From an uncultured Robiginitomaculum sp. (lineage in GTDB: Bacteria > Pseudomonadota > Alphaproteobacteria > Caulobacterales > Maricaulaceae): DNA of 49,878 nucleotides. The translations under genes and the position numbers were made by a program. Within the stretch, counting starts at the first letter, position 1. Each line of letters starts with the position of its first letter. The notes under the pieces were generated by a model. It saw nothing but the letters and a program-made list of their open reading frames with translations. It searched no databases and was not told the origin of the DNA. The stretch is from positions 1 to 49,878 of the forward strand of contig CALLVD010000041.1 in assembly GCA_938010385.1 (NCBI GenBank), given 5' to 3'. Positions 13,064-49,878 of the stretch are shown here, piece after piece.

Positions 13064-14110
13064 ATGCGCATGTCAGATAAAACAGCAGATGTGCTTAAAC
13101 ACGCCGCCCAAACCAAACGCGACCGGTCACCGGTAGAAGCAGACAAATTACGCGCTGCCGCCATTATGAACTATGTCACGCCGGAGCTTGAACGCCGGCT
13201 GCTGCAAAACCTGTGTATTGCGACTGAAAACGCCCCCGCGATTGACGACAAGACCCGGCAAGCGCTCTACGGTGATTTTTCTTTGGGTCATGGCGGCGAT
13301 TTTTCCCTCGGCTTTGCGGATGTTCAATCGGTGCTTAAGTCGCGGGCGGCCTCTAAACTGCCGCGCCCCGGACGGATAAGCTCGGTTACAGTCTCGGTTC
13401 ACTCTTCCCTTATTTCATTTCGGGCGGCGTTAACGCCGTCTTCCTTGGCGGCCAATGACCATGTTTTGCGCGAGGCCGGAACCTGCGTCGCCGCTCCGTT
13501 AAGCGCGCCTGTGCAGGACGGGCTTATTAGGGCGGGCGATGTCCCGGCCCATATTGCCGAAAAAGCGCTGAGCGCTATGGCGGCTGCCTTGGTAAAAAGT
13601 CTTACGGGTGAGCATGGCCTGTCACAAACTGATGCGGCCGAAATTGTTGAAAATGCCCGGCAACGCGCCGCTTTATCACTTTGCGCCGACATGACGCGCG
13701 GGCCGGCGATTGCGCAGTTTGCGCGCAATATGGACAGGGAAGACCGGTTGACGTCGGCCTTTATCGCCCGCTCCGCGGGCTGCGGATATATGCGGCTGAC
13801 GCAATATGCGCTGGCGAGGCGGGCCGAAATTACGCCGGCCAAAGCGGCTTTAATGCTTTACGCGCCGGGCGATATGGGACTGACAGCATTAGCGCAGCGC
13901 GCCGGCATGGGCGGTCTCGATATTCATATTCTGCGCGTTGCGGCCGGAGTTTTTCGTGAATTTGAGACGGCCGGATTGGACTATGACACTGATTTCTTCC
14001 GTCGCCGCGTCATGGACAGTCTTCTGCACGCAGAGCCGGCATTTTCAGATGCTGACGGGGATTATCTTTTGGAAAAACTGGATGGCCTCGGCGCGCAGGA
14101 ATTTCATTAG
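13064..14110 (+). CDS. DUF2336-type helical-repeat protein
   Basis: This 348-residue, alanine-rich, almost entirely helical protein shows no signal peptide or membrane span, so it is presumably cytoplasmic. The spacing of short helices (for example KALSAMAAALVKSL, then TDAAEIVENARQRAALSL, then LTSAFIARSAGCGYMRL) resembles the HEAT-like DUF2336 family, which is common and uncharacterised in alphaproteobacteria. I cannot assign a function. It follows tRNA-His and converges on serB, sharing the four bases TTAG at their stops. A second ATG at 13070 is an equally good start; neither has an obvious ribosome site. Confidence 0.7.
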   Translation: MRMSDKTADVLKHAAQTKRDRSPVEADKLRAAAIMNYVTPELERRLLQNLCIATENAPAIDDKTRQALYGDFSLGHGGDFSLGFADVQSVLKSRAASKLPRPGRISSVTVSVHSSLISFRAALTPSSLAANDHVLREAGTCVAAPLSAPVQDGLIRAGDVPAHIAEKALSAMAAALVKSLTGEHGLSQTDAAEIVENARQRAALSLCADMTRGPAIAQFARNMDREDRLTSAFIARSAGCGYMRLTQYALARRAEITPAKAALMLYAPGDMGLTALAQRAGMGGLDIHILRVAAGVFREFETAGLDYDTDFFRRRVMDSLLHAEPAFSDADGDYLLEKLDGLGAQEFH

Positions 14111-47109: not shown

Positions 47110-48116
47110 AAATCTTAATGTCAGAGCATATCGGCGAAACCCGCGCCGCCGTTTATGACGGCAAAAAATTGGTCGAGCTTCACCTCGCGCGCGCTTCTGA
47201 GGCGCGCCGCGCTTTTCCCGGCGATGTCTATTCCGGCCGCGTGCGTGCTGTGGATACCTCCTTGTCAGCGGCGTTTTTAGAACTGGGCGCAGGGCCGCAG
47301 GGTTTTTTAAACTTCTCGCTCGCCCCCGGCGCACCGAAGTTTCGTGAAGGCCAAATGCTGCGCGTCTCCGTCACCCGCGAAGCCGAAGGCGATAAAGGCC
47401 CGATTATGGCCTTTATCGAAATGAGTAACGCCGATGAGCCGCGCCGCGAAAAAGGCGGCAATTTAAAATCCCGCCTGCTGGCGCGCTTTCCGGGTGCCGA
47501 AGTCACCACCGGCGACATTCCGGATTTTGACGCGGCCATAGAGCGGGACGTGGCACTGAAAGGCGGCGGTTCTATCTCTATTGAGCCGACCAAAGCGGTT
47601 TGCGCGATTGATGTCGATACCGGCATGGGCGGGAATAAGAAAAAAGTCTCGCTCGCTGCAGCCAAAGAAGCCGCGCGGCAAGTGCGCCTGCGGGGGATAG
47701 GCGGGCTTATCCTGATTGATTTTCCCAACATGCGGTCCAAAAAAGACCGCGATGATGTCTGGCAGACCCTCGCGGATAATTTTGAAAATGATCCCAACGC
47801 CATAAAGCTCGCGCCCATGTCGCGGTTCGGTACGGTGGAAATCAGCCGGGCGAGGCCGCTCCGCTCACTCCCTGAAATGATGACCGACCGCTACGGGCAG
47901 GCCACTGCGGAAACCTTGGCCCTGCGAGGGGTTGCCCGATTGGCGGCCGAAGGCGCGGCTTCCGGCGGGGCGAAATTGGAACTGACCGCGCCGCGCAAGG
48001 CTTATGACTGGCTGGAGCGCAATAAGGATTTATGGCACTCTGAACTCACCGATAAAATCGGCGCGCGATTCACGCTTGCGCTCGGCGAAACTTTGGATGT
48101 GAAGGCAGACCGGTAA
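47106..48116 (+). CDS. short ribonuclease E/G-family protein
   Basis: This 336-residue protein belongs to the RNase E/G family but is about 150 residues shorter than RNase G. An S1-like region (about 35-105; GDVYSGRVRAVDTSLSAAFLEL) is followed by a shortened sensor region. The DNase I-like catalytic part comes next, with both metal-binding aspartates, D169 (AIDVDTG) and D205 (LIDFPNM). The zinc-link CPxC motif that holds RNase E dimers is absent. It overlaps maf by four bases and yacG by one. An RNA-processing role is likely by family; the substrates are unknown. Confidence 0.88.
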   Translation: MKILMSEHIGETRAAVYDGKKLVELHLARASEARRAFPGDVYSGRVRAVDTSLSAAFLELGAGPQGFLNFSLAPGAPKFREGQMLRVSVTREAEGDKGPIMAFIEMSNADEPRREKGGNLKSRLLARFPGAEVTTGDIPDFDAAIERDVALKGGGSISIEPTKAVCAIDVDTGMGGNKKKVSLAAAKEAARQVRLRGIGGLILIDFPNMRSKKDRDDVWQTLADNFENDPNAIKLAPMSRFGTVEISRARPLRSLPEMMTDRYGQATAETLALRGVARLAAEGAASGGAKLELTAPRKAYDWLERNKDLWHSELTDKIGARFTLALGETLDVKADR

Positions 48117-48304
48117 TGACTGCACAAAAAGACAAATGCCCCGTCTGCAAAAACCCGCCGCATGAAGCGTTCGCGCCGTTCTGCTCCAAACGCTGCGCCG
48201 ATGTCGATCTGCACCGCTGGATGTCCGGAGGCTACGCCATCCCCGGAACTGACGGCGAAGCGAAAGTGCCTGCGAACGATACGGATGATGATTTAGAGTT
48301 TTAG
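48116..48304 (+). CDS. yacG: DNA gyrase inhibitor YacG (zinc-binding)
   Basis: This 62-residue zinc-finger protein has two cysteine pairs, CPVCKNPP and FCSKRCADVDLHRW, as in YacG, which binds the GyrB subunit and inhibits gyrase. The acidic C-terminus (NDTDDDLEF) is typical. It overlaps the ribonuclease gene by one base and ends the infA operon. Confidence 0.93.
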   Translation: MTAQKDKCPVCKNPPHEAFAPFCSKRCADVDLHRWMSGGYAIPGTDGEAKVPANDTDDDLEF

Positions 48305-48306
48305 GG

Positions 48307-48498
48307 GTGGAAGAACTAAAGCAGACAATCCTGAAACAATTTAGAGCCACGGGAAGGTTTATTCCGTTTTACTTGCTTATGCTCGCAGTCGCTTTTTTGG
48401 CCTTTATTTCACAAGAGTATTTCCTGTTCTTCTTACTGGTCCCGTTAGTTCCGTGGGGTATTTTGCATGCGTACAAAACATGGGATGATGACGTATAG
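48307..48498 (+). CDS. small two-TM membrane protein
   Basis: This 63-residue hypothetical protein has two hydrophobic segments (about 20-37 and 39-53) and an acidic end WDDDV. It starts with GTG at 48307, two bases after yacG, and could be translated by coupling. Base composition is more AT-rich than the preceding operon. I recognise no family. Confidence 0.6.
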   Translation: MEELKQTILKQFRATGRFIPFYLLMLAVAFLAFISQEYFLFFLLVPLVPWGILHAYKTWDDDV

Positions 48499-48543
48499 CG
48501 GAGTTTAGGGGGCGGGCGTGTCTAAACCAAGAATCGCAGATTT

Positions 48544-48760
48544 CCCCTCATCCGCGCTTCGCGCACCTTCTCCCCAAGGAGAAGGCGATTATTCGACCAT
48601 TGCAATCAAACTTAGCTAAACGGGATTTTTCCGCGCGCACCGCCTTCTCCCAAGGGAGAAGGCGATAAATGTGAGACTTTTCCCTAGATGATATTATGCG
48701 CCTGACTGACGGTCTTTCGCCTTCTCCTTGGGGAGAAGGTGGCGACAGCCGGATGAGGGG
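48544..48760 (+). repeat. 217-bp inverted-repeat element with three palindromes
   Basis: The two ends are inverted copies of about 45 bases. CCCCTCATCCG at 48544-48554 pairs with CGGATGAGGGG at 48750-48760, and the inner 25 bases (48564-48588 against 48717-48741) match exactly. Each end contains the palindrome CCTTCTCC / GGAGAAGG (48566-48585 and 48720-48739). A third palindrome, CCTTCTCCC / GGGAGAAGG, sits in the middle at 48643-48662. The design resembles a non-autonomous REP/MITE-type element. It lies directly beside the DUF559 nuclease gene. Confidence 0.85.
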
Positions 48761-48766
48761 ACAGTC

Positions 48767-49099
48767 TTACTGTCCGATAAGTAATTTTAAACTATCCAAG
48801 ACTTCATTTATATCCGCGTAGATATCTTCATTACGGACACGGAAAACTCGAAAGCCATGGGACTGCAAAACAGCAGTTCTTTCATCATCATAAAGCTCAT
48901 TATCGTCGTGCTGATACCCATCTAATTCCACAATGAGCTTTTCAGAATCGCAAACAAAATCGGCAATGTATTTATCAATTGGAACTTGGCGCTTGAACTT
49001 TAGGTTACAAAATCGACGACCGCGTATTTTCTGCCAAAACAGACCTTCGGCGCGGCTTTGATTTCTGCGTAGATGACGAGCAAATTCAGTTTTTCTCAT
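48767..49099 (-). CDS. DUF559 (Vsr-like endonuclease fold) protein
   Basis: This 110-residue protein fits the DUF559 family, which shares the restriction-endonuclease-like fold of very-short-patch repair endonuclease Vsr. Recognisable parts are LRRNQSRAEGLFWQKIRGR, FKRQVPIDKYIADFVC (catalytic Asp), ELDGYQHDD and RTAVLQSHGFRVFRVRNEDI. It is a probable DNA nuclease of unknown target. Base composition is clearly more AT-rich than the flanking genes. It lies nine bases after the glycerophosphodiesterase gene and ends six bases from the 217-bp inverted-repeat element. Vsr's partner Dcm methyltransferase is not nearby. Confidence 0.88.
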   Translation of the reverse strand: MRKTEFARHLRRNQSRAEGLFWQKIRGRRFCNLKFKRQVPIDKYIADFVCDSEKLIVELDGYQHDDNELYDDERTAVLQSHGFRVFRVRNEDIYADINEVLDSLKLLIGQ

Positions 49100-49108
49100 G
49101 CCGCAGTC

Positions 49109-49878
49109 TCAAAGCGCATCAAAAACCCGTTTTTTATCAACGAAGTACAGGTCTATGTTCATAGCCTCCTTGTGGGCTTGTGCTTTCTTTAAATCGACAT
49201 AGGAAAAGACGCTGACCTCAATACCGTCGGCGTGATAGCCGGCGACGAGGTCTTTTGTGACCATGCCGACGGGGACGCAGACAGAGCCGTCGGTTTTAAT
49301 CAGCATATCGCGCAGCGTGCCGGTAATCTGCCCGTCAACAAACCATCCGCTGCGCTCGCCGTGAATATATTGGCGGCCGGAGTTTGGGACGGCGCCGTTT
49401 TTTGCGGTGTAGACTTTGTGCACTTTGCGCACGAGCGGCCCCGGCTTTTGGCACCAATGGGACAGGCAGAGCGGCGCATCCGGCTCCAGTGCGTGACAGG
49501 CGTAAAGCGCCTCGGGAACCCAGCTGACATAGACCACCCGGTCCTGCAATCGGTGCAGGCGAACCAAGGACGTAATCTCAACTTCAAAACCCGCGTCTTT
49601 AATATCAATCAGCAGTTTGGCATCTTTGACAGGGTGCGCAGCGGCAGCCGCGAGCAGGGCGTCGAACGTGGCAAAGCGGGCAAAGTCTCCGCCGGTGGCG
49701 GCATAATCGCTCGCGATAATATCGCAGAGCTTGCGGGTCTTTCCGCGCCCGTCTTTGGCGTGTTCGTCATGCCATATCATCGGCGTGCCGCACTTGGCGA
49801 CGCGGATATCAAATTCCAAATGTTTGACCCCGAAATCCAGTGCAGCGAGCATGCCCGCAATCGTATTTTCCCGAGCGT
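49109..49878 (-). CDS. glycerophosphodiester phosphodiesterase, 5' end outside window
   Basis: This partial protein (at least 255 residues) belongs to the GDPD family, which hydrolyses glycerophosphodiesters to glycerol 3-phosphate and an alcohol. The window edge cuts the N-terminus; reading through 49878 in frame gives ARENTIAG, the family's conserved region that follows the missing HRG. The metal-binding LEFDI and the WHDE motif are present, as is the later DIKDAGFEVEI. The frame continues out of the window, so no start is given. The DUF559 gene follows by nine bases. Confidence 0.9.
   Translation of the reverse strand, partial: ARENTIAGMLAALDFGVKHLEFDIRVAKCGTPMIWHDEHAKDGRGKTRKLCDIIASDYAATGGDFARFATFDALLAAAAAHPVKDAKLLIDIKDAGFEVEITSLVRLHRLQDRVVYVSWVPEALYACHALEPDAPLCLSHWCQKPGPLVRKVHKVYTAKNGAVPNSGRQYIHGERSGWFVDGQITGTLRDMLIKTDGSVCVPVGMVTKDLVAGYHADGIEVSVFSYVDLKKAQAHKEAMNIDLYFVDKKRVFDAL

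Follow-up and report, generated by a model that had tools for sequence, protein, structure and literature searches.

Organization of the DUF559 locus

The window (the whole stretch of DNA analyzed, 49,878 nt of a contig from an uncultured Robiginitomaculum sp.) carries near its right-hand end a short gene for a DUF559 protein, with a palindromic element on its 3′ side and a GDPD-like gene on its 5′ side. The features of this region are:

48116-48304, plus strand: yacG, the left anchor of the empty-site comparison
48307-48498, plus strand: ORF for a 63-aa membrane-like protein, present at the empty site of congener G004 as well
48543-49099: segment missing in congeners G004, G005, and G002 at the syntenic site between yacG and GDPD; an insertion relative to these, with approximate junctions
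48544-48760, no strand: 217-bp REPIN-like element composed of a unit (U), a middle palindrome, and an inverted unit, RC(U); recognized by its inverted ends and by copies elsewhere in the genome
48544-48588, plus strand: distal unit U, with tail CCCCTCATCCG (48544-48554) and hairpin CCTTCTCCCCAAGGAGAAGG (48566-48585)
48641-48664, no strand: middle (third) palindrome, CGCCTTCTCCCAAGGGAGAAGGCG
48717-48760, minus strand: proximal unit, with tail CGGATGAGGGG (48750-48760) towards the gene; counterpart of the downstream terminal repeat of intact cassettes
48767-49099, minus strand: gene for the DUF559 (PF04480) Vsr/EDxHD-fold nuclease, 110 aa (profile match E 6e-38)
49109-49876, minus strand: GDPD-like gene, the right anchor of the empty-site comparison, 9 bp from DUF559

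The last 141 bases of the window (49738-49878) also form the end of another contig of this genome (G000:C49), with 100% identity (an assembly overlap), so that the GDPD-like gene probably continues there.

A preliminary description of this region had proposed a 217-bp element with inverted ends of about 45 bases and a third palindrome within, six bases from the 3′ end of the DUF559 gene, and it holds in each of these particulars. When the right end is reverse-complemented, the left end (CCCCTCATCCGCGCTTCGCGCACCTTCTCCCCAAGGAGAAGGCGA) aligns with it, interrupted by three single-base gaps only; for the 45-bp ends the alignment score is 71, against a maximum of 19 among 500 dinucleotide shuffles. 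The ends form a perfect inverted repeat in their inner 25 nt (48564-48588 and 48717-48741) and another in their outer 11-12 nt; from each of the three palindromes to the next is 77 bp. The gap between element and ORF is 48761-48766. Rfam gave chance-level matches only, below gathering scores. A reading of the locus as a defense system was considered and rejected, the sole PADLOC match being a weak local one to DpdF.

Repeat families in the host genome

The host genome (G000) is a MAG of 2.05 Mb, 75% complete. The further copies of the window palindrome expected in the preliminary description were found in it: there are 11 sites with at most two mismatches, and none for a reversed control pattern. 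About ten of the 11 belong to the window family, spread over eight contigs, and several of these form inverted pairs or have the same tail. They are mostly intergenic; two overlap mechanically called ORFs, which are perhaps not genes.

Only two DUF559 genes are present in the assembly (at its 75% completeness). The second (C99:22822-23148, within locus C99:22768-23233) is bounded by a different inverted repeat, GGCCCCCTCAGTCTCGCTGCGCTCGACAGCTCCCCCAAACCGGGGGAGC, 98% identical, with tails pointing outward. Ends of this second type also occur without a gene, as inverted or partial pairs on three contigs (C83, C90, and C97) and as a single unit on C12, and they flank the related DUF559 gene of a congener (G004:C58) as well. 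A third palindrome family, CCTCCACCGCTTTAGCGGGGGAGGT, adjoins the one RAYT-like gene of the host (C33:5075-5401), which is the sole PF01797 gene of the genome and lies on another contig than the window. On a tree of 136 DUF559 proteins, repeat type is clustered, with 37 changes compared to a mean of 51 after shuffling (0 of 200 shuffles as low), a figure confounded by host relatedness.

Unit structure and the complete cassette

A unit consists of a C-rich tail, often followed by a small hairpin, and then a hairpin of the CCTTCTCC...GGAGAAGG type. The tail of the window unit is CCCCTCATCC; in many other loci it is CCCTCACCC. The nearest relatives of the window DUF559 are from Robiginitomaculum, and the closest with an intact cassette is that of R. 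antarcticum (L071). Here the gene lies between perfect inverted repeats of 45 bp (ATCGGCCTTCTCCCTAATGGGAGAAGGTGCCCGACAGGGCGGATGAGGGGA - gene - TCCCCTCATCCGCCCTGTCGGGCACCTTCTCCCATTAGGGAGAAGGACGAT), in the arrangement RC(U)-gene-U with tails towards the gene. The complete cassette is thus a gene of about 330 bp between two inverted units, about 450-600 bp altogether, usually in the order RC(U)-gene-U. DUF559 is its only content; known transposase domains are absent.

By this standard the window copy is an apparently truncated cassette that has no unit but the downstream one and is fused to a gene-less pair. Its gene is followed by U, the middle palindrome, and RC(U), and has no upstream unit; the element is therefore to be read as the gene's own downstream unit plus a gene-less pair. 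The upstream unit was lost or never present, there being no room for one, since the GDPD-like gene ends only 9 bp upstream of DUF559. The pairing of element and gene first proposed is accordingly real, but the 217-bp element does not stand beside the gene as a separate partner: intact congener cassettes show that its right-hand unit belongs to the gene, as the downstream repeat.

Generality of the association

The preliminary description also proposed to test whether DUF559 genes lie beside such palindromes more often than chance would allow. They do so in many taxa, and on both sides of the gene. Around 80 named DUF559 loci from Proteobacteria, Melainabacteria, and others, hairpins are dense close to the gene on both sides, at up to 6-8 per kb over the first 100 bp or so, and fall to about 0.25 per kb beyond. 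For the alphaproteobacteria, 289 genomes were sampled evenly across the class, 58 loci with the strongest DUF559 matches were taken from them, and hairpins with a stem of at least 9 were counted. At 54 of the 58 loci one side or the other, or both, has a hairpin within 200 bp, compared to 9.2% for random intervals in the same loci; at 28 of the 58 both sides do, compared to 0.18%. Hairpins are as frequent upstream of the gene as downstream.

The two flanks are moreover related to each other. In a set of 135 loci, the left flank aligned with the reverse complement of the right flank with a score of at least 50 at 67; this was so for none of 1133 background intervals and for 2.1% of mismatched loci. 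The tail order was RC(U)-gene-U 40 times and the opposite 5 times.

The same association can be seen between genomes. Of the 289 alphaproteobacterial genomes in the sample, between roughly a quarter and a third have DUF559. At least three palindromes of the CTCTCCC type were found in 51 of 72 genomes with DUF559, vs. 15 of 217 without it (odds ratio 33, p 3e-26, a value inflated by relatedness), and 1258 of the 1423 copies are in genomes with DUF559. This comparison concerns one repeat type (CTCTCCC), and therefore misses the TTCTCC type of the window and the CTCCCC type. Genomes rich in CTCTCCC palindromes and lacking DUF559 do exist (G212 with 23, G024 with 19, and G143 with 16). Within 15 genera of mixed DUF559 status, 9 differ in the expected direction, 4 in the opposite one, and 2 are ties (sign test p 0.27; Wilcoxon test on the differences p 0.015). 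RAYT genes show no association with these palindromes across the 289 genomes (odds ratio 0.71, p 0.39), and RAYT is lacking in 29 of the 37 genomes that have 10 copies or more.

Position changes and empty sites

Sites without the insertion, also foreseen in the preliminary description, were found among congeners, with approximate junctions in the case of the window site. In G004, the distance from the end of yacG to the GDPD gene is 270 bp instead of 813: the small ORF is present, and the REPIN and DUF559 are absent. Both are absent from the syntenic site in G005 and G002 too. The nearest DUF559 gene of G005 is elsewhere, and the site corresponding to that one measures only 205 bp in the host genome and 98 bp in G001. 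In G004 (C18) the otherwise empty site contains one isolated GGATGAGGGGA, which is the tail end of the unit, just after yacG and before the small ORF.

A cassette of 447 bp, measured from repeat end to repeat end, is present at three unrelated sites in congeners (G005:C2, G003:C375, and G005:C1). Homology between these copies breaks off sharply at the repeat ends: G005:C2 and G003:C375 are 88% identical inside the cassette and 36-40% in the 45 bp outside it. A target duplication was looked for at the Robiginitomaculum cassettes, and none was evident. In a pair of Melainabacteria-type (rumen-type) loci (L092:5101-5584 and L106:9909-10392), the cassettes are 97.7% identical and their flanks 84-86%; the greater likeness of the cassettes suggests recent transfer or conversion. 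The cassette, on these comparisons, appears to be mobile.

Another candidate empty-site pair (G280 vs. G122 and G208) was rejected: the genomes are only about 75-80% identical, and their intergenic regions could not be aligned. G122 and G208 carry other repeats, so the zero palindrome count there should not be over-read. G280 itself has further inverted repeats, of a CGTC-like or CCTCCGG type (L235:4090-4215, 13150-13270, and 13430-13560), which are common to congeners lacking DUF559.

Units in Escherichia coli

The E. coli DUF559 gene is ycjD (L191:1477-1830), and it is followed by units of this type. Besides the ycjD neighborhood, gene-less units occur between pstA and pstB, phnP and yjdP, tusA and zntA, and tktB and ypfG. 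The intergenic copies (L285-L290) occupy a median of three places per genome and are polymorphic between strains. Alleles of the pstA-pstB region with and without the unit differ by 92 bp, bounded by an 8-bp direct repeat, ACACGGTT; this is the only base-precise empty site. Change in either direction would fit the difference, a gain by insertion with duplication or a loss by deletion between the 8-bp repeats. Absence of ycjD was rejected as an empty site, the three strains inspected at the sapF locus (L188-L190) having an MFS efflux island there. Since E. coli has copies of the units, ideas about their partnership with DUF559 are directly testable in a laboratory strain.

The DUF559 protein

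The window protein matches PF04480 with 129.5 bits (cut-off 20.6), and its AlphaFold2 model has a mean pLDDT of 91. The best fold matches by Foldseek are Neisseria gonorrhoeae NGO0050 (3hrl, itself a DUF559 protein), then I-Bth0305I (3r3p), and then Vsr. By sequence profile, 3hrl is matched with E 4e-36 and 3r3p with E 2e-4, the latter being the value for I-Bth0305I by fold as well. Vsr structures (1cw0 and 1vsr) are matched with E 0.016-0.02 and probability 0.99-1, in agreement with the Vsr nuclease fold attributed to DUF559 at the outset. Residues E18, R37, D47, E58, D60, R74, and R87 are invariant in the DUF559 alignment, and H64 and D71 nearly so. In pairs that allow an estimate, dN/dS is 0.03-0.29; the protein is therefore under purifying selection.

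Caulobacter VsrA, also a DUF559 protein, is induced by DNA damage (SOS) and has been read as a mismatch-repair nuclease; where the cytosine methyltransferase ScmA is missing, it causes damage and an SOS response (PMC12907096). No linkage to a cytosine methyltransferase gene is seen for the window DUF559, whose neighbors are yacG and the GDPD-like gene.

Possible explanations

DUF559 genes are nearly always bordered by hairpins and are found at different places within a genus, and therefore look like an overlooked mobile element of the REP type. Together with the palindromic units that surround them, they probably constitute a REP-like mobile system, in which the nuclease is predicted to act on its own units. 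The gene-less pairs (REPIN- or MITE-like, such as 48544-48760) would, as part of the same reading, be non-autonomous derivatives. The original suggestion, of a Vsr-type nuclease paired with short palindromes in the manner of REP and RAYT but with another enzyme, is thus supported by the further copies, the flank enrichment, and the empty sites. Of the readings considered, a REPtron-like system with a Vsr/EDxHD nuclease as its dedicated enzyme is the best, and one we hold with reasonable confidence; cleavage of the repeats is its prediction.

Going beyond the pairing, family specificity, and position changes, which are observed, we infer the following steps. The DUF559 protein would recognize its own unit by hairpin and tail and would nick or cut there, most likely while replication leaves the palindrome extruded or single-stranded. 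Host repair or replication might then copy the unit, or unit-gene-unit, to a new place, much as homing nucleases use host repair. Gene-less pairs might arise through internal loss and be served in trans. We know of no strand-transfer activity for hydrolytic nucleases of the PD-(D/E)XK type.

A bolder form of this proposal is possible, though our confidence in it falls a little short of the halfway mark: that DUF559 is the mobilizer of a new class of tiny mobile elements, each about 450 bp long and made up of nothing but the gene for a 110-aa Vsr/EDxHD nuclease and its hairpin ends, spreading by nicking its own palindromes with the help of host repair. These would make up a third widespread REP-like superfamily, in Proteobacteria, Melainabacteria, and others, including the units around E. 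coli ycjD.

Alternatively, the units might be MITE-like, with another recombinase or template switching during replication moving them in trans, and DUF559 merely as cargo. In favor of this, DNA transposition by a hydrolytic nuclease alone is not known, most gene-less copies are far from any DUF559 gene, and some genomes have many palindromes and no DUF559. Cargo would not, however, be expected to be the same nuclease every time, and DUF559 recurs across many taxa beside several families of repeats, of which the host genome alone has two. Copies are also concentrated in genomes with DUF559, with no such link for RAYT, and the gene is under strong purifying selection. We consider this explanation unlikely.

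It is also conceivable that DUF559 is a Vsr-like host nuclease for repair or cruciform processing, and the hairpins its preferred substrates, regulatory sites, or terminators. The Vsr fold and the behavior of Caulobacter VsrA, which is SOS-induced and damaging without ScmA (PMC12907096), fit such a role, and hairpins 3′ of the gene could act as terminators. The equal frequency of hairpins upstream, and their arrangement in inverted pairs, are harder to account for in this way, as are cassettes at different sites in congeners with homology stopping at the repeats, and the dispersal of gene-less pairs. These make a purely host function distinctly improbable.

Mobilization of ordinary REPs by a RAYT (TnpA-REP) elsewhere in the genome is suggested by the very similar REP/REPIN architecture and by the one RAYT-like gene in the host. 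That gene is beside a different palindrome family, though (CCTCCACCGCTTTAGCGGGGGAGGT); RAYT presence is uncorrelated with the palindromes, most of the genomes with 10 or more copies having none; and the units have C-rich tails rather than GTAG, so that there is very little chance of this being the case. Chance juxtaposition, which the single pairing in the window alone might suggest, can be dismissed in view of the enrichment counts (80, 58, and 135 loci, and 289 genomes).

Comparison with known systems

The REPtron-like reading can be set against several known arrangements. REPtrons proper (REPs or REPINs with a RAYT, a Y1 HUH transposase) likewise have tailed hairpin repeats, inverted pairs around a single nuclease gene, and dispersed gene-less copies, and a genome may have several families, with a separate gene for each. 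The enzyme here is instead a non-homologous nuclease of the Vsr/EDxHD fold (PF04480 rather than PF01797), and the tail is CCCCTCATCC- or CCCTCACCC-like, where the REPtron foot is GTAG or a related tetranucleotide. Whole REPtrons, moreover, reportedly do not transpose (PMC6006769, PMC8266576), unlike the DUF559 cassette, which is itself found at different sites. CGTC-tagged REPs, abundant in alphaproteobacteria and with no known dedicated transposase (PMC3733652), are similarly REP-like palindromes of this class, but their tag and stem differ from those of the DUF559 units. The CGTC-like repeats encountered here (e.g., in G280) are shared with congeners that have no DUF559, and the DUF559 units look like a separate superfamily.

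By profile and fold, the nearest characterized nuclease is the EDxHD homing endonuclease I-Bth0305I, a selfish enzyme that drives its own gene; it has extra DNA-binding domains and is part of a mobile intron (PMC3943268), whereas DUF559 is a lone 110-aa domain between palindromes, with no intron. Homing enzymes cleave the vacant form of their cognate site, and vacant syntenic sites do exist for DUF559. The Vsr repair endonuclease, which nicks at T:G mismatches, shares the fold, but the DUF559 genes considered here are partnered with palindromes, not with a methyltransferase. Insertion sequences and MITEs also have one gene between terminal inverted repeats, with gene-less derivatives and empty sites, and the cassette resembles an insertion sequence in being a sharply bounded unit at different sites (the congener cassettes; the window copy lacks one end). 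It differs in having no transposase domain, a length of only ~450 bp, hairpin ends, and no consistent target duplication that could be seen.

REP-like repeats are among the commonest in bacteria, yet a partner enzyme is known for the GTAG type alone. Were there a further kind of partner with an unrelated fold, pairings between hairpin repeats and nucleases would have arisen on more than one occasion, and DUF559, so far a domain of unknown function (represented in E. coli by ycjD), would gain one. The proposal also suggests that Caulobacter VsrA, presently read as a repair enzyme, is worth re-examining. No published link between DUF559 and palindromic repeats was found in the open-licence literature, so a description elsewhere is possible.

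Among 50,697 phage records, DUF559 gave two tblastn matches; in one of these (L186), the flanks have no pair of the CCCTCTCCC type. On a Synechocystis plasmid (CP101716), a DUF559 gene and a palindrome-like repeat are found upstream of a BREX pglX-type methyltransferase gene.
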